A DNA stretch of 64,000 nucleotides from Pseudomonadota bacterium (lineage in GTDB: Bacteria; Pseudomonadota; Alphaproteobacteria; Rhizobiales; Beijerinckiaceae). Position numbers and translations under genes: made by a program. Where the stretch lies: assembly GCA_020161475.1 (NCBI GenBank), contig JAIUNQ010000002.1, positions 35,168 through 99,167 of the forward strand, written 5' to 3'. Position 1 is the first letter of the stretch; each line of letters begins with the position of its first letter. Under the pieces are notes generated by a model. The model was not told where the DNA came from, did no database searches, and saw nothing but the letters and a program-made list of their open reading frames with translations. This document shows, in pieces, positions 3,513-48,933 of the stretch.

Positions 3513-5198
3513 ATGCGGATTCCAATGCTGCGCCTGAGCACCAAAATACGCGCCCTTGGATTGATCGGGGCTGCCGCCATCCTTGGCCTGTTCCTGTTCT
3601 CCGTCGAGGACCAGTGGACCATGCTGCACGACGCGCGCCGCATGGAACTGCGCTCCGTGATGGATATCTCCACCTCGATTGTTCGTAATCTTGATGAGCG
3701 TGCGAAGAAGGGCGAGATCACCCTGGCTGCCGCCCAGCAGGAGGCCAAGGCCGCGCTGGCTTCCATCCGTTTTCACGGCCGCCAGCATCTTTTCGTGCTC
3801 GATGAGCAGACCAAGATGGTCATGCATCCCTCCAACAAGGACATGCTCGGCAAGAGCGTGGCCGATGTGAAGGATGTGAATGGCAAGACCTATTATCGCG
3901 AGGCCACCGAGGCCGTGCGCAAGGATGATGAGGCCTTCATCTCCTTCACCAGCACCCGTTCGGGCAGCGAGGAGCTCATTTCGCGCCTCACCATCGTGCG
4001 GAGCTATCGTCCCTGGGGCTGGGTGATCGGCTCCAGCGCCTATCTTGATGACCTGTGGGACGAATTCATCTCGGAAACCATCAAGGCGGGCTGGCAGCAC
4101 GGGTTGATCATCGTTCTCTTCGTCTTCGCCACGCTGATGCTCTCGCGTAATATCAACGGCCTCATCGAGAGCACCCGCCAGACCATCACCGTGCTGGCTC
4201 AAAACGCAGGCGATGTGCATGTGCCGCATCAGGAGCGGCAAGATGAGATCGGCGACATGGCCCGCGCGCTGGCCGTGCTGGGCGAAAATGCCGCCGCGCG
4301 CCAGCGTCTCGAAGCGGATCGCATCAACGAACACCGGGCTGCCGAGGATCGCCAGCGCCGTCTGGAAGCGCTGATCGCGGAATTCGAAGGTATGGTGCGC
4401 GGGCGCATTTCCTCGCTGGGGGAAGCCTCCAACTTCCTGCGCGACAGCGCCGCCAACATGCGCGCCACCGCCGATGCCAGCATCGAGCGCACCAACGCGG
4501 TGGCTGCGGCCACCGAGCAGGCCTCCATGACCGCGCAGACGCTGGCTGCGGCGGGACAGGAGCTATCGGCCTCCATCACCGAAGTGCATACGCTGGCAAC
4601 CCAGTGCAGCGAGGCCGCGAATCAGGCCGGAGGCGTTGTGAGCGCCGCCGATGGCGCGGTGACACGCCTTACCCATGCCGCCAACCAGATCGGGGCCTTT
4701 GTGCAGACCATCAACGCAATTGCGGGGCAGACCAACCTTCTCGCGCTCAATGCCACGATCGAGGCGGCGCGTGCGGGCGAAGCGGGCAAGGGGTTTGCGG
4801 TTGTGGCAGCCGAAGTGAAGCAGCTGGCGGCCCTGACCACCAAAGCCACGGACGAAATCGCCAGCCACATCAACGACATTCAGGCCTCCACGGCGGAAAC
4901 CAGCACCTCGATCCAATCCGTGCTGGGGACCATCGGTCGTATTTCGGAGCTGGCGCGGGCAACCTCCAGCGCTGTCGGTGAGCAGCAGTCGGCCACCGAT
5001 GAGATCGCCCGCAATGTGGAGCAGGTCGCGCAGGGCTCCCGCGAGATTTCTGAAAACATCACCGATGTGCACCGCCAGTCGAGTGGCGCGAGCAAGGTGG
5101 TCGAAACGGTCAACGATGCGGCCCATGCGGTGGCCAGCAACGCCTCGGCCATTTCCACCGACATCGAGCGCTTTCTGGGCAATGTGCGCGCGGCGTAA
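3513..5198 (+). CDS. Methyl-accepting chemotaxis protein with a periplasmic Cache domain
   Basis: A 561-residue inner-membrane chemoreceptor. TM1 is around residues 14-32. A periplasmic region of about 150 residues carries single-Cache features ([16 protein letters not shown], then [13 protein letters not shown]). TM2 is near 190-208, followed by a HAMP-like linker. The cytoplasmic coiled coil contains the CheA/CheW-contacting hairpin tip ([20 protein letters not shown]). It ends RFLGNVRAA, without the C-terminal pentapeptide that tethers CheR/CheB. sCache_2 receptors commonly sense small carboxylates, but the ligand here is unknown. The start chosen is the ATG at 3513 after GAGATGGG; a GTG directly before it is also possible. 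An FNR-like site lies just upstream, suggesting oxygen-responsive expression. A hairpin terminator follows. Confidence 0.92.
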
Positions 5199-43881: not shown

Positions 43882-44235
43882 ATGATGACAATGAATGCCA
43901 TGACTAAAGAATGGATCGAGGTCGGCGCTGTTGACGATGTGCCGGTGCGCGGCGCGCGCCGGGTGCATACGCAGGCCGGAGAAATCGCCGTGTTCAAATG
44001 CGCGGATGGCAGCCTGTTCGCCCTGCGCAACCGCTGCCCGCACAAGGGCGGCCCGCTCTCGGAGGGGATCGTGCATGGGCATGGGGTCACCTGCCCGCTC
44101 CACAACTGGGTGATTGATCTCTCGACAGGCGAAGCCACGGGCGCGGACAAGGGCTGCACGCCCCAAATTCCGCTCAAAGTGGAGGACGGCCGGATTTTCC
44201 TTGATGGCGCGGCCATCGCCAAGCTGGCGGCGTGA
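43882..44235 (+). CDS. nirD: Nitrite reductase small subunit, Rieske-like
   Basis: 117 residues with an intact Rieske [2Fe-2S] motif: C52-P-H54 in NRCPHKGGPL and C71-P-L-H74 in VTCPLHNW. Some NirD proteins lose these ligands; this one keeps them. It follows nirB after five bases. Several in-frame ATGs (43882, 43885, 43891) are possible starts. Confidence 0.95.
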   Translation: MMTMNAMTKEWIEVGAVDDVPVRGARRVHTQAGEIAVFKCADGSLFALRNRCPHKGGPLSEGIVHGHGVTCPLHNWVIDLSTGEATGADKGCTPQIPLKVEDGRIFLDGAAIAKLAA

Positions 44236-44242
44236 GGCGCTG

Positions 44243-46996
44243 ATGCAAGAGCCGGTCATCACCCGCACCACCTGCCCCTATTGCGGCGTCGGCTGCGGGG
44301 TGCTGGCCACGCGCGCTCCTGACGGTACGGTGAGTGTCGCGGGCGATCCGGAGCATCCCGCCAATTTCGGGCGGCTCTGCTCCAAGGGGTCGGCGCTGGC
44401 GGAAACGCTTGGCCTCGATGACCGGTTGCTCCACCCCGAGATCAAGGGGAAGCGCGCAGGCTGGGACGAAGCGCTTGATCTGGTCGCCGAAACCTTCGCC
44501 ACCACCATCGCCAAGCACGGGCCGGACTCGGTGGCCCTCTATGTTTCCGGCCAAATCCTGACCGAGGACTATTACCTCGCCAACAAGCTGATGAAGGGCT
44601 ACGTCGGCTCGGCGAATATCGATACCAATTCAAGGCTTTGCATGGCCTCGGCCGTGGCGGCGCACCGCCGCGCTTTTGGCACCGACACCGTGCCCGCCAC
44701 CTATGCCGATCTGGAAGAAGCGGATCTGATCGTCTTTGTCGGCTCCAACTTCGCATGGTGCCACCCCGTGCTCTTCCAGCGCGTGCTGGCCGCGCGCGAG
44801 AAAAAGGGTACGCGGCTTATCGTCGTCGATCCGCGCCGCACTGCCACCGCTGAAAGCGCCGATCTGCACCTTTCCCTGGAGCCGGACAGCGATGTGCCGC
44901 TCTTCCTCGGGTTGCTTAAATCTCTTGAGGCGGCAGGCTGCCGTGATGCGGCTTACACGAGCGCGCATGTGAACGGGGCGGAGGACGCGCTATCCGCAGC
45001 TGCGCCCTTTTCGATTGCGCGCGTGGCCGAGGCTACTGGCCTCTCGCAAGCGGATCTCGCCGCATTCTATGCCGAATTTGCTGCGACAGAGAAGGTTGTC
45101 ACCATCTTCTCGATGGGGGTGAACCAGTCGGATTCCGGCACCGACAAAGCCAATGCGATCATCAACTGCCATCTGCTCACCGGGCGTATCGGCAAGCCGG
45201 GCGCTTCGCCCTTCTCGATCACCGGCCAGCCCAATGCCATGGGCGGGCGCGAGGTCGGCGGCCTTGCCAACATGCTCGCCGCCCACATGAACCTTGAGGA
45301 TGCGGCGGCGCGGGCGCGCGTGCAGCGCTTCTGGGCCAGCCCTGCGATGGCCGACAAGCCGGGGCTCAAAGCCGTCGAGATGTTCGAGGCGGTGCGCGCG
45401 GGGCGCATCAAGGCGATCTGGATCATGTCCACCAACCCGGTGGACAGCCTGCCGCAGGCCGACAGGGTGCGCGAGGCGCTGGAGCTTTGCCCCTTTGTCG
45501 TCGTGTCAGACGCGATCCGCCACACTGACACCACCGCTTACGCCCATGTGCTGCTGCCGGCCACCGCCTGGGGCGAAAAGGACGGCACGGTGACCAATTC
45601 CGAGCGCCGCATCTCGCGCCAGCGCGCCTTTTTGCCCCAACCGGGCGAGGCCAAGCCGGATTGGTGGCAGATTGCTGAAGTGGCCAAGCGCATGGGGTTC
45701 TCCGGCTTCGATTACCCCTCCCCCGCCGCGATCTTCCGCGAGCACGCGGCGCTTTCGGCGTTTGAGAACAGCGGCGCGCGCGATTTCGACATTGGGGCTT
45801 ATGAGACCATCTCGGAGGTGGAATTCGAAGCGCTGGTGCCCGTCATGTGGCCCCAGCCCGCCGGGGCGGAGGCGCAGGAGACACGCTTCTTCGCGCAGGG
45901 ACGGTACTATCACGGCGACGGGAAGGCCCGCATGGTGCCGGTCGTGCCCCGGCCCACAAGCAAGGCGCGCTCGGAACGCTATCCGCTGTGGCTCAACACC
46001 GGGCGCATTCGCGACCAGTGGCACACCATGACCCGCACGGGCAAAGCGCCGCGTTTGCTCGGCCATTATGGCGAGCCGTTCTGCGAGCTGCACCCCGAGG
46101 ATGCCGCCGCCCAAGGCATTGAGGCCGCCGGCCTGATGCGGGTTGAAAGCGCCCATGGCGCGGCGATTGTGCGGGCTTTGCTGAGCGAAAAGGCGCGCAA
46201 GGGGTCGGTGTTTCTGCCACTTCACTGGACCGATCAATTCGCGGCCAAAGCGCGGGCGGATGCTTTGGTGAATGCTGCCGTGGATCCGATTTCAGGCGAG
46301 CCGGGCTACAAGCGCACGCCTTGCGCCATCGCCCCCGCTGCCATGGCCTGGCATGGGTTTGCGGTGAGCGCGCGCAAACCGCAGGCCGTGGCCAGCGAGT
46401 ACTGGGCGCTCTCACCCGCCGCAGAGGGATGGCGCGTGGAACTGGCGGGTAGCACCGCGCCGGAGGACTGGCAAACCTATGCCGCAACCCTGTTCGGCTT
46501 GGGCGGGGATGCCGAATGGCTGGCTTACCAAGACCGTGAGGCGGGCCTTGTGCGTCTCGCCGCGTTCGAGGGCGAAAAGCTGATGGGCGCGCTGTTTGTT
46601 TCGCCCCAACCCGTGGCGCTGGCGCGCGGCTTTGTGACCGAAGCGCTGGCCGAGAGGCATAGCGGGATGGCACGTTATCGGGTGCTCGCCGGGCAAGGCG
46701 GCGCCGGTAGCCCCGACCATGGCGCCATCATCTGTGCGTGTTTTCAGGTCGGCGTGAAGCAGATCATCGCGGCGATTGAGGCCGGAGCGGCCTCGGTGGA
46801 GGCCATTGGCGCGGCGCTGAAGGCCGGCACCAACTGCGGCTCCTGCAAGAGCGACATTCGCACGCTGCTGGCTAAAACCCCGCCCTCAAGCGGGGAGCGC
46901 CCGGACCGCTGCACCCACGCAGATAACGACCATGATGGTGGGCAGCGCCCATTTGATCTGACGCCTGGCCTCGCGCGCGAGGCTGTGGAAGCGTGA
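44243..46996 (+). CDS. nasA: Assimilatory nitrate reductase, molybdopterin catalytic subunit
   Basis: Reduces nitrate to nitrite in the cytosol. The 917-residue protein has the N-terminal 4Fe-4S motif CPYCGVGCGV with a fourth Cys in RLCSKG. The molybdopterin-dinucleotide domains follow (TNSRLCMASAV; GKPGASPFSITGQPNAMGGREVGG). A C-terminal BFD-like [2Fe-2S] domain (IICACFQVG... NCGSCKSDI, about 830-875) marks the Nas type with on-board electron transfer. The ATG at 44243 lies seven bases after nirD. The last 40 residues after the BFD domain are low-complexity, and the final 111 bp are antisense to the 3' end of the channel gene. No nitrate transporter is in the window. Confidence 0.95.
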   Translation: MQEPVITRTTCPYCGVGCGVLATRAPDGTVSVAGDPEHPANFGRLCSKGSALAETLGLDDRLLHPEIKGKRAGWDEALDLVAETFATTIAKHGPDSVALYVSGQILTEDYYLANKLMKGYVGSANIDTNSRLCMASAVAAHRRAFGTDTVPATYADLEEADLIVFVGSNFAWCHPVLFQRVLAAREKKGTRLIVVDPRRTATAESADLHLSLEPDSDVPLFLGLLKSLEAAGCRDAAYTSAHVNGAEDALSAAAPFSIARVAEATGLSQADLAAFYAEFAATEKVVTIFSMGVNQSDSGTDKANAIINCHLLTGRIGKPGASPFSITGQPNAMGGREVGGLANMLAAHMNLEDAAARARVQRFWASPAMADKPGLKAVEMFEAVRAGRIKAIWIMSTNPVDSLPQADRVREALELCPFVVVSDAIRHTDTTAYAHVLLPATAWGEKDGTVTNSERRISRQRAFLPQPGEAKPDWWQIAEVAKRMGFSGFDYPSPAAIFREHAALSAFENSGARDFDIGAYETISEVEFEALVPVMWPQPAGAEAQETRFFAQGRYYHGDGKARMVPVVPRPTSKARSERYPLWLNTGRIRDQWHTMTRTGKAPRLLGHYGEPFCELHPEDAAAQGIEAAGLMRVESAHGAAIVRALLSEKARKGSVFLPLHWTDQFAAKARADALVNAAVDPISGEPGYKRTPCAIAPAAMAWHGFAVSARKPQAVASEYWALSPAAEGWRVELAGSTAPEDWQTYAATLFGLGGDAEWLAYQDREAGLVRLAAFEGEKLMGALFVSPQPVALARGFVTEALAERHSGMARYRVLAGQGGAGSPDHGAIICACFQVGVKQIIAAIEAGAASVEAIGAALKAGTNCGSCKSDIRTLLAKTPPSSGERPDRCTHADNDHDGGQRPFDLTPGLAREAVEA

Positions 46997-47941
46997 GGCC
47001 GGATTGGCGATGGGCGAAGCCAACATGATCTCCAGCATCAGCACCACCACGAGATAGAGGTAGCCGAGCGAGATCATCTGCGCGACCGGCGTATTGAGCG
47101 AGATCGAGCCGGGGAAGCTCGATTCAAAGGTGAAGCTGATCGCCGCCAGCGCGAGCAGCGAGGAGAAGATCAGGCTGCCCTTGGATTCCTCCTTGAGCCC
47201 CGGCGACCAGAGCACGAAGATCGACACCGCCAGCACCGCCAGAATGGGCACGAAGATGCGCAGCACATAGCGCTCGGAATGGCGGGCAAGCGTCAGCGTG
47301 GCGTTGAGGCGTGAGTACGAGCGCGCGTTCCAGCCCATGCCCTCCTCACTGGTGAAGCGCAGCCCTGCGGAGGCCCAATCCACCACCGACAGCACCGGCT
47401 CCACGCCCGAATTGCGGCGGTCCGCCTCGGTGCTCACCAGAAGCGCCTCCTGCTTGGCATAGCGCGGCAGCGAGAGCACCAGCGCCAGCTCCTGCTTGTC
47501 GAAGGGGAAGGCATCCATGTTCATGCGGAAGCGGAAGTTGCTCTCGAAGCGCTCGATCAGCACGGCCTCGCCATTCGAATGCACGGAAAGCGCCACGGAT
47601 CGGCTGTCCGCATCATCCACCTGATTGTCGATCACGAGGCCGGGACGCCAGTTGGCCTTGAGGAACTCATCCGCATCCTCGCCCACGCGGTCGATGCGGT
47701 TGAGCCCCTGCTGGAGCGGGTCGAACGCCAGACGCGGATCGCGCCAGCGCTGGGTGAGTTCAAGATGCAGGCGGGCCTGTCCGGCCACCTCCTCCACCTT
47801 GAGGACATTGAGCACCTTGAGGCCCACGCGCACCTTGACCGGCCATTCCACACCGGTGGGCAGCATATCCTTGTCAGCGGCCGCGACCGGGGTGATCCCG
47901 GCGATCAGGACGGCCAGAAGGGCGAAGAGCCAGCGCGTCAT
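46886..47941 (-). CDS. Pentameric ligand-gated ion channel (bacterial Pro-loop/Cys-loop receptor)
   Basis: A 351-residue membrane receptor with a signal peptide (1-21), a beta-sandwich ligand-binding domain and four helices. Family hallmarks: WRDPRL (66-71), the Cys-loop equivalent FPFDKQ (145-150) without flanking cysteines as in other bacterial members, and a proline in M1 (P232; helix 225-245). M2 is about 255-273, starting after LKEESKG and ending before FESSFPG; M3 is about 283-307; M4 is about 330-349. Acidic residues at the inner end of M2 hint at cation selectivity, as in GLIC. The start overlaps the stop of the upstream Cache gene (ATGA), so the two are translationally coupled. The 3' end overlaps nasA convergently by 111 bp. 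Ligand unknown. Confidence 0.88.
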   Translation of the reverse strand: MTRWLFALLAVLIAGITPVAAADKDMLPTGVEWPVKVRVGLKVLNVLKVEEVAGQARLHLELTQRWRDPRLAFDPLQQGLNRIDRVGEDADEFLKANWRPGLVIDNQVDDADSRSVALSVHSNGEAVLIERFESNFRFRMNMDAFPFDKQELALVLSLPRYAKQEALLVSTEADRRNSGVEPVLSVVDWASAGLRFTSEEGMGWNARSYSRLNATLTLARHSERYVLRIFVPILAVLAVSIFVLWSPGLKEESKGSLIFSSLLALAAISFTFESSFPGSISLNTPVAQMISLGYLYLVVVLMLEIMLASPIANPASRFHSLAREARRQIKWALPTIMVVICVGAAVRALPA

Positions 47942-48933
47942 GCGGCGCTCCGGCGGGTGCAGGCAAAGCAGAATAGCACAGCGAACACTGCATAAGCCAG
48001 AATAGCCCCCACGAGCGCGGCCACCCAAAGCTCGGTGGAGATGCGATGCGCCTCACGCCCCGAATAAGGTTTGAGGGCGACGGTGGCCCCCACCTGCTTG
48101 CCGGAGAAATCCACCAGCGGAGTCACGATCATGCTGTAGGAGCGCCCTACGATCGCAACGCTGGACACCTGCACATCCTTGGTGATGCGCAAAGCGCCGC
48201 TCTTGAGCAGGGCGTTGCCGAGATCATCATCGGTGGAGAGCGCGAGGGTCATGCCGCTGATCGTGGGCAGCTTCGGGTCGAGCGCGACACCAGCGAGCGA
48301 GGGGACGATCACCACCGCAATATCCGCGTTGGTGGTCGATTTCACGCCTTCGATGATCGGCTTCATATCCAGCCCGACTTCCATGGTGCCGAGCGCCTTA
48401 TCACCCCGCTCCACCGAGGCGATGCCGCGAATGCCAATGCCCGCGATGCCGATCTCGACGCCCGACTGCGCGCGACGGAGCTTGTTGGCCGCCACCACCA
48501 TGGGGCGGAAGCCGGAGATATCATCCCCGCTCAGATCCGGGCGATGCATGCGCAGCAGGTAGCGGATATCCGGGCTGTGATAGCCGTAGATCTGCACCCC
48601 CGCCTGCTTGGCGAGATAATCATAGGCCTCCTGCGAGAGCGCCTGAAGTTTGGCCTTGTCCAGCGCTTCGAGCGGGGCGGCGATATCGGGACGGCGCGCG
48701 GTGCTCTCGGCCAGCGAGAGCGCGAATTTACCCGCCTGATCGAAGGCCGCCGTGATCGAAGCCCCGACAAGGCGCATCTGCGCCTGCCGGTCCCGCTCGA
48801 TGAAATCTTCCTGAGCGCCGGTTTGCAGCGCAAGCATGGTGTAAAGCGTGGCCGCTATGACAAGCGCAACGGGGGCAGCCAGCAGGAAGCCAAGCCCGGA
48901 GATGCGGGCAGTGCCGGTTTTCACGTCAGACAT
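47938..48933 (-). CDS. Membrane-anchored Cache-type sensor lacking an output domain
   Basis: A 331-residue protein with TM1 at about 12-33, a periplasmic region of about 265 residues and TM2 at about 303-325, then only a few cytosolic residues (ACTRRSAA). The periplasmic part resembles the double-Cache sensors of chemoreceptors: a long N-terminal helix (IERDRQAQMRLVGASITAAFDQAGKFALSLAES), then VQIYGYHSPDIRYLLRMHRPDLSGDDISGFRPMV and GIASVERGDKALGTMEVGLDMKPII. There is no HAMP, kinase, cyclase or MCP signalling domain. Its stop codon overlaps the start of the channel gene by four bases. It probably senses a small molecule for, or delivers it to, the channel; that is inference from gene structure. 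Confidence 0.8.
   Translation of the reverse strand: MSDVKTGTARISGLGFLLAAPVALVIAATLYTMLALQTGAQEDFIERDRQAQMRLVGASITAAFDQAGKFALSLAESTARRPDIAAPLEALDKAKLQALSQEAYDYLAKQAGVQIYGYHSPDIRYLLRMHRPDLSGDDISGFRPMVVAANKLRRAQSGVEIGIAGIGIRGIASVERGDKALGTMEVGLDMKPIIEGVKSTTNADIAVVIVPSLAGVALDPKLPTISGMTLALSTDDDLGNALLKSGALRITKDVQVSSVAIVGRSYSMIVTPLVDFSGKQVGATVALKPYSGREAHRISTELWVAALVGAILAYAVFAVLFCFACTRRSAA

Follow-up and report, generated by a model that had tools for sequence, protein, structure and literature searches.

The closest described system is a predicted operon of Rhodopseudomonas in which a gene for a pentameric ligand-gated ion channel (pLGIC) stands with a stand-alone Cache gene, and for which cooperation of the two products was proposed (Tasneem, Iyer, Jakobsson and Aravind, Genome Biol 2004; PMC549065). 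Here we describe a comparable pair of genes, coding for a membrane sensor and a channel, in a 64,000-nucleotide stretch of a Beijerinckiaceae genome (assembly GCA_020161475.1, contig JAIUNQ010000002.1, positions 35,168 to 99,167), hereafter called the window. As in the published case, an acetylcholine-receptor-type ligand-gated ion channel (ART-LGIC) gene and a stand-alone Cache gene lie in one predicted operon. The Rhodopseudomonas palustris channels P0138, P0151, P0160 and P0161 are 57-59% identical to the window channel; thus, judging by sequence similarity, the 2004 operon very likely belongs to the same family. The idea that sensor and channel cooperate is therefore not new, as it was outlined in that article. 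The excerpts available of PMC549065 name one bacterium and give neither the Cache subfamily nor its origin, the ligand residues or the breadth of the association. Among the open-licence articles listed, as far as titles and the beginnings of abstracts reveal, PMC549065 alone links pLGICs to stand-alone Cache genes and no later paper resumes the idea; the text of PMC4795631 contains neither 'cache' nor 'operon'. The new elements here are how widely and how exclusively the two genes are linked, a likely chemoreceptor ancestry of the sensor with intermediate tails, the shared residues of the ligand module, a signal in the second transmembrane helix (TM2) of the sensor, and a predicted class of ligand.

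The two genes comprise the following features, in which AF2 stands for AlphaFold2 models:

47938..48933, reverse strand: dCache_3 membrane sensor without output domain, 331 residues (P0002), stop codon included; dCache_3 match at 2.4e-13, AF2 predicted local distance difference test (pLDDT) 90.3
48823..48897, reverse strand: sensor transmembrane helix 1 (TM1), about residues 13-37; AF2 helix 13-79 and hydrophobicity
48352..48753, reverse strand: membrane-distal Cache module, residues 61-194, with R128, D138, R143, E160 and R169
48061..48351, reverse strand: membrane-proximal Cache module, residues 195-291, with T234; AF2
47968..48042, reverse strand: sensor TM2, about residues 298-322, the protein ending nine residues later; AF2 and conservation
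47948..47951, reverse strand: GGAG, putative Shine-Dalgarno-like element six bases ahead of the channel ATG; sequence
47938..47941, reverse strand: ATGA overlap of sensor stop and channel start; sequence
46886..47941, reverse strand: pLGIC subunit, 351 residues (P0001), stop codon included; ATG at 47941, stop at 46886-46888
47279..47866, reverse strand: extracellular (periplasmic) beta-sandwich of the channel, residues 26-221, Pro-loop AFPFD at 144-148; AF2 strands 35-220, Pfam ligand-binding domain 25-221
47207..47275, reverse strand: channel helix M1, residues 223-245, with P232; AF2 helix 223-245
47117..47191, reverse strand: channel pore helix M2, residues 251-275, with E252, L263 and E273; AF2 helix and 34-row comparison
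47006..47089, reverse strand: channel helix M3, residues 285-312; AF2
46898..46987, reverse strand: channel helix M4, residues 319-348; AF2

The sensor-channel pair is a conserved unit, and its adjacency is not a matter of chance. A channel profile retrieved 23 loci from named genomes (Bosea, Chelatococcus, Phreatobacter, Pseudolabrys, Rhodoplanes, Bradyrhizobium and others, including L008 of genome G015, which belongs to the window's own genus), and a sensor match lies directly upstream of the channel in all 23. A sample of 397 genomes of the same order gave 22 channel matches in 20 genomes. A sensor match adjoins 11 of the 11 close ones (E <= 2.7e-36) and, within the available flanks, none of the 11 remote ones (E 4.1e-20 to 8.4e-13). 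The conclusion that the adjacency exceeds chance rests on these 23 named loci and 11 close matches. Samples of the class and the phylum (385 and 398 genomes) added one further pair, L089, outside the class, and a scan of 35 loci with the sensor profile found four with a sensor and 31 without, some loci being truncated by contig ends. One could suppose that the two genes stay together through inherited gene order or hitch-hiking. No support was found for such an accident, to which we give next to no credence, as the two genes remain together even where channel identity drops to 26% and the other neighbours change. Chance adjacency is contradicted by this genome comparison and was rejected. Besides the pair, no cluster of neighbouring genes is shared by more than 5 of the 24 loci compared, with the proviso that gene calling is crude in this GC-rich DNA (the two pair genes themselves were called in just 19 and 18 of the 24).

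The overlap of the genes is conserved as well. We assembled 34 pairs from 33 genomes, and start and stop codons overlap in 32 of them: a 4-base overlap is possible in 29 (six of which also allow a 1-base overlap), and three have a 1-base overlap. Of the other two pairs, L029 has a 3-base gap, and L032 has an ATGA that is out of frame with the channel as read. L038 keeps the overlap though its channel is just 26% identical to that of the window. A promoter scan returned 0 sites, against 0.2 expected. The genome with two pairs, G100, carries divergent ones (L035 and L049), whose channels fall in two different branches.

Phylogenies separate paired from unpaired proteins, both trees having long branches and roots placed at midpoint only. 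Paired channels lie on one side of a branch from 18 unpaired bacterial pLGICs (support 100/99), which represent the 31 sensor-less loci after omission of 13 partial, weak or fused ones (L006, L085-L087, L093-L101). Paired sensors split from 20 unpaired relatives with support 100/100. Of 16 other genomes in the window's genus, a single one contains the channel; the pair is thus patchy and looks mobile or frequently lost. A search of plasmids with the channel found no match. A channel relative named Ideonella livida (P0177) is 52% identical to the window channel and suggests that the family extends beyond the alphaproteobacteria, outside of which we take the class of Ideonella to lie.

The channel has the hallmarks of its superfamily. 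Pfam Neur_chan_LBD matches residues 25-221 (1.4e-18, 67.6 bits for a cut-off of 26), and the best 60 of 259 matches among PDB sequences are all GLIC entries (best E 1.9e-18). The AF2 model, built on 70 of 122 channel matches plus nine locus proteins, has a pLDDT of 88.9, and its top Foldseek match is GLIC, with a TM-score (TMt) of 0.89. Model and alignment together display a beta-sandwich followed by four transmembrane helices, a Pro-loop and the M1 proline. The motifs W66-R-D-P-R-L71 and F145-P-F-D-K-Q150 are present, and P146 and P232 are invariant in an 80-row alignment. In what we take to be the prime numbering of M2, E252 is -2' (at the cytoplasmic mouth), L263 is 9' and E273 is 19'. Cation channels have an acidic residue at -1' or -2' of the pore mouth. 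Counted by eye, 31 of 34 paired channels have one there, E252 in the window protein, and the channel is therefore predicted to pass cations.

The sensor matches Pfam dCache_3 with 50.7 bits (cut-off 25.7), and no second Pfam family exceeds its own cut-off. Its AF2 model, built on 63 of 78 sensor matches plus 12 locus proteins, begins with a long helix (13-79), which is followed by two PAS-like modules, and closes with a helix at 293-330. As this helix stops one residue before the C terminus, the protein has no cytosolic output domain; the HAMP and output domains that define dCache_3 chemoreceptors and kinases are both missing. Searches of the sensor against PDB sequences gave nothing significant (best E 0.94, 0.17 and 0.057). 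An earlier sequence-only reading of the window had placed both genes at the coordinates listed above, with the four shared bases, and had described a Cys-loop/Pro-loop channel (WRDPRL, FPFDKQ, P232, four helices) next to a two-helix double-Cache protein without cytosolic signalling domain. All of this stands, with the partner now specified as dCache_3.

The relatives of the sensor point to its origin. With a sensor profile (E <= 1e-20), the 397 genomes gave 57 matches in 47 genomes, 11 beside channels and 46 elsewhere. Of these unpaired relatives, 44 lie in open frames of 611-808 residues, the size of chemoreceptors, and the two others in frames of 225 and 288 residues. Two unpaired sensors were scanned with Pfam, and both are dCache_3-HAMP-MCPsignal proteins; a chemoreceptor hairpin motif is present in 17 of the 20 unpaired sensors retained from the 46. 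The deep-branching paired sensors L005, L035, L036, L037, L038 and L049 extend about 50-65 residues past TM2, and weak HAMP matches, under the Pfam cut-off, occur in this stub of L049 and in L089. In the window's branch, the cytosolic tail after TM2 is gone. Because the deep members have a stub at the HAMP position and shortening is graded, the sensor looks like a truncated chemoreceptor. The simplest reading is that it descends from a chemoreceptor whose cytosolic output was lost stepwise, a direction that is inferred rather than set by a root.

Given this kinship, the Cache protein might still signal through chemoreceptors or kinases by forming mixed dimers, the channel being merely co-regulated. 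The sensor is a cousin of chemoreceptor sensors, and its host genome has 26 MCPsignal matches. However, the window genome gave no other dCache_3 match that could serve as dimer partner, the cytosolic part is gone in the window's branch, and the 397 genomes contain no lone short sensor save the two open frames of 225 and 288 residues. We regard mixed dimers as quite improbable.

The ligand module appears to have been retained. Nine of its residues are identical in all 34 paired sensors and in all 20 unpaired chemoreceptor-type ones. In the predicted model, the outer (distal) module has the fold of CitA, a citrate sensor. CitA binds citrate through R66, H69, R107 and K109. The sensor's R169 aligns with the CitA arginine taken as R107, in a match below threshold that does not fix the register of R124/R128 relative to R66. 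We predict that the sensor binds a small molecule on the periplasmic side, and that this ligand is likely a carboxylate. The carboxylate sensors CitA, DcuS and DctB are histidine kinases, unlike the window sensor, and their sequence similarity to it is below significance.

A further signal concerns the membrane. At 45-55% overall sensor identity, TM2 is 55% identical in paired sensors (136 pairs of sequences) versus 28% in chemoreceptor-type sensors (29 pairs), and TM1 is 35% versus 27% identical; at 55-65%, TM2 is 62% (127 pairs) versus 45% (11 pairs) identical. This comparison omits one more unpaired sensor (L078, incomplete). In addition, T234 of the proximal module is present in 34 of 34 paired sensors; none of the 20 unpaired ones has it, although two have a gap at the site. 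The unusual conservation of TM2 in the window's branch, together with T234, suggests a partner at and in the membrane, of which the channel is the obvious candidate; a homodimer of the sensor would account for TM2 as well.

We propose that the operon encodes a two-protein ligand-gated channel, in which the sensor binds its ligand and opens or tunes the pore by direct contact; our confidence in this is evenly balanced. The small molecule, likely a carboxylate, would be bound in the periplasm, and the contact with the pentameric channel, probably partly within the membrane, would be carried by TM2 and the membrane-proximal module. In the simplest arrangement, a sensor dimer would dock beside one or more channel subunits, and the ion flux may feed motility or membrane potential. 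The two proteins, their start-stop overlap and linkage, the shared ligand-module residues and the graded shortening of the tail are observed, and the folds are predicted models. The sequence-only reading had likewise suggested that the sensor gates or joins the channel, which we regard as the best explanation, with about as much to be said for it as against, and which was outlined in 2004 (PMC549065). That reading is thus partly supported: the families, translational coupling, the absent output domain and the adjacency, which it had offered as a check, hold; the fused versions that it also named were not found among 7996 scored candidates, and its proposal was not new.

Several points weigh against a contact, or against the steps leading to it. 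The linkage counts come from profiles built from paired genes, with at most five candidates scored per genome, and so hold for this branch, where exceptions could be missed. Apart from L049, the five deep-branching sensors with a stub have no HAMP match at E <= 1. The sequence pairs in the helix comparison are not independent; at 55-65% sensor identity, TM1 has no excess (0.37 in paired versus 0.39 in chemoreceptor-type sensors), and below 45%, TM2 is near the shuffled level (0.27-0.30 versus 0.24) and does not surpass the TM2 of chemoreceptor-type sensors. Channel M4 shows no gain in conservation in the paired channels over the unpaired ones and was rejected as a docking helix, so that none stands out on the channel. 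Sensor and channel distances correlate with a Pearson coefficient of 0.96, which tight linkage alone would produce, and we discounted this mirror-tree result as evidence of contact. A joined sensor-channel query yielded 2 matches among 7996 scored candidates, neither with a Cache domain. As for the ligand, the register of CitA R66 and H69 in the sensor is not fixed, and the two deepest paired sensors have F in place of R169. Finally, a periplasmic ligand domain is still part of the channel, which may therefore have its own agonist.

This last point leads to another explanation, published for fused and operonic periplasmic binding protein (PBP) and Cache partners (PMC549065), in which the two proteins serve one signal without touching: the Cache protein would concentrate the ligand or present it, and the ligand-binding domain retained by the channel would be the receptor. 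The extracellular domain of GLIC binds mono- and dicarboxylates (PMC7336382). A two-helix, membrane-anchored sensor would nevertheless be a poor soluble carrier, and the conservation of TM2 points into the membrane; we consider this explanation rather improbable. Simple proton gating as in GLIC was also considered as a possible mode of opening.

Alternatively, the Cache protein could be an obligatory assembly, folding or delivery partner or a structural subunit, its ligand module being secondary, as in some auxiliary subunits of animal channels. The sensor gene comes first and is overlap-coupled in 32 of 34 pairs, which would suit co-translational assembly, and within the window's branch, TM2 of the sensor is better conserved than TM1. 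In animals, the alpha2-delta subunits of voltage-gated calcium channels (CaV) act in channel trafficking. These subunits bear Cache domains (PMC4822843). A pure chaperone, however, would not need nine ligand-module residues kept as strictly as in unpaired sensors, and we hold this alternative to be unlikely, though not negligible.

We favour direct gating. The pair may have a role beside chemotaxis, for which the evidence is circumstantial: the window genome has flagellin matches as well as its 26 MCPsignal matches, and MCPsignal proteins are present in all 12 pair-bearing genomes checked (just one in G200). The window itself contains a chemoreceptor MCPsignal domain at 4593-5096 on the forward strand (G000:C273:39760-40263). 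The fuller scenario, in which a chemotaxis receptor was trimmed to its sensor and two helices and rewired to a carboxylate-responsive split channel that stays intact across Hyphomicrobiales and at least one other class, is one we put forward tentatively, leaning slightly towards doubt.

Regarding the surroundings, the 3' end of the channel gene overlaps a convergent open reading frame (44114-46996) for a molybdopterin oxidoreductase, nitrate reductase-like, by 111 bases (46886-46996). Nitrite and nitrate reductase-like genes thus face the operon tail to tail, but the idea of a nitrate signal was given up, as no neighbour cluster recurs beyond 5 of 24 loci.

In one genus of the same order, unpaired pLGIC genes (L043:54-2511, forward strand; L046:1276-3737, reverse strand) immediately follow a pyridoxal-dependent decarboxylase gene (Pyridoxal_deC match at 3e-52 in each; two of four such loci were scanned). 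Pyridoxal-dependent decarboxylases make amines. Since ELIC, another bacterial channel, opens in response to primary amines (PMC3119659), enzyme and channel may be a pair of ligand maker and receptor.

The roles and opening signals of bacterial relatives of neurotransmitter receptors are largely obscure, and the present pair offers a testable answer: the conserved partner gene indicates which protein to co-express, paired orthologues are available in number as test material, and the CitA-like module points to the first ligands to try. Among known systems, GLIC and the bacterial Pro-loop channels share the fold, Pro-loop, M1 proline and four helices of the window channel, although GLIC is about 21% identical to it. 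The 11' pore histidine of GLIC corresponds to L265, according to the alignment with an H11'F mutant entry, and we know of no Cache partner of GLIC. The dCache_3 chemoreceptors share with the window sensor the sensor domain, two membrane helices and the nine invariant ligand-module residues. In contrast, the window sensor has neither HAMP nor MCP signalling domain, and T234 and a conserved TM2 mark the paired sensors. DeCLIC (PMC9897478, PMC12664993) also adds periplasmic domains to a pLGIC, but in DeCLIC and in PBP-fused pLGICs the extra domain is fused N-terminally, whereas the window has a stand-alone membrane protein that belongs to another family. Open frames of more than 700 residues at L006, L094, L098, L099 and L101 combine Peripla_BP_6 with a pLGIC-like part, a fusion type as in PMC549065, and L085 has about 370 residues ahead of its channel part, without a Pfam match at E <= 0.1. 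The animal alpha2-delta subunits serve another channel family and differ in Cache type and membrane attachment. They are, as here, Cache-bearing partners of an ion channel (PMC549065, PMC4822843), and the likeness is likely convergent. If the complex is real, it shows how a sensor of a kinase pathway can be reassigned to a channel, yielding a bacterial counterpart of the Cache-bearing auxiliary subunits of animal channels.

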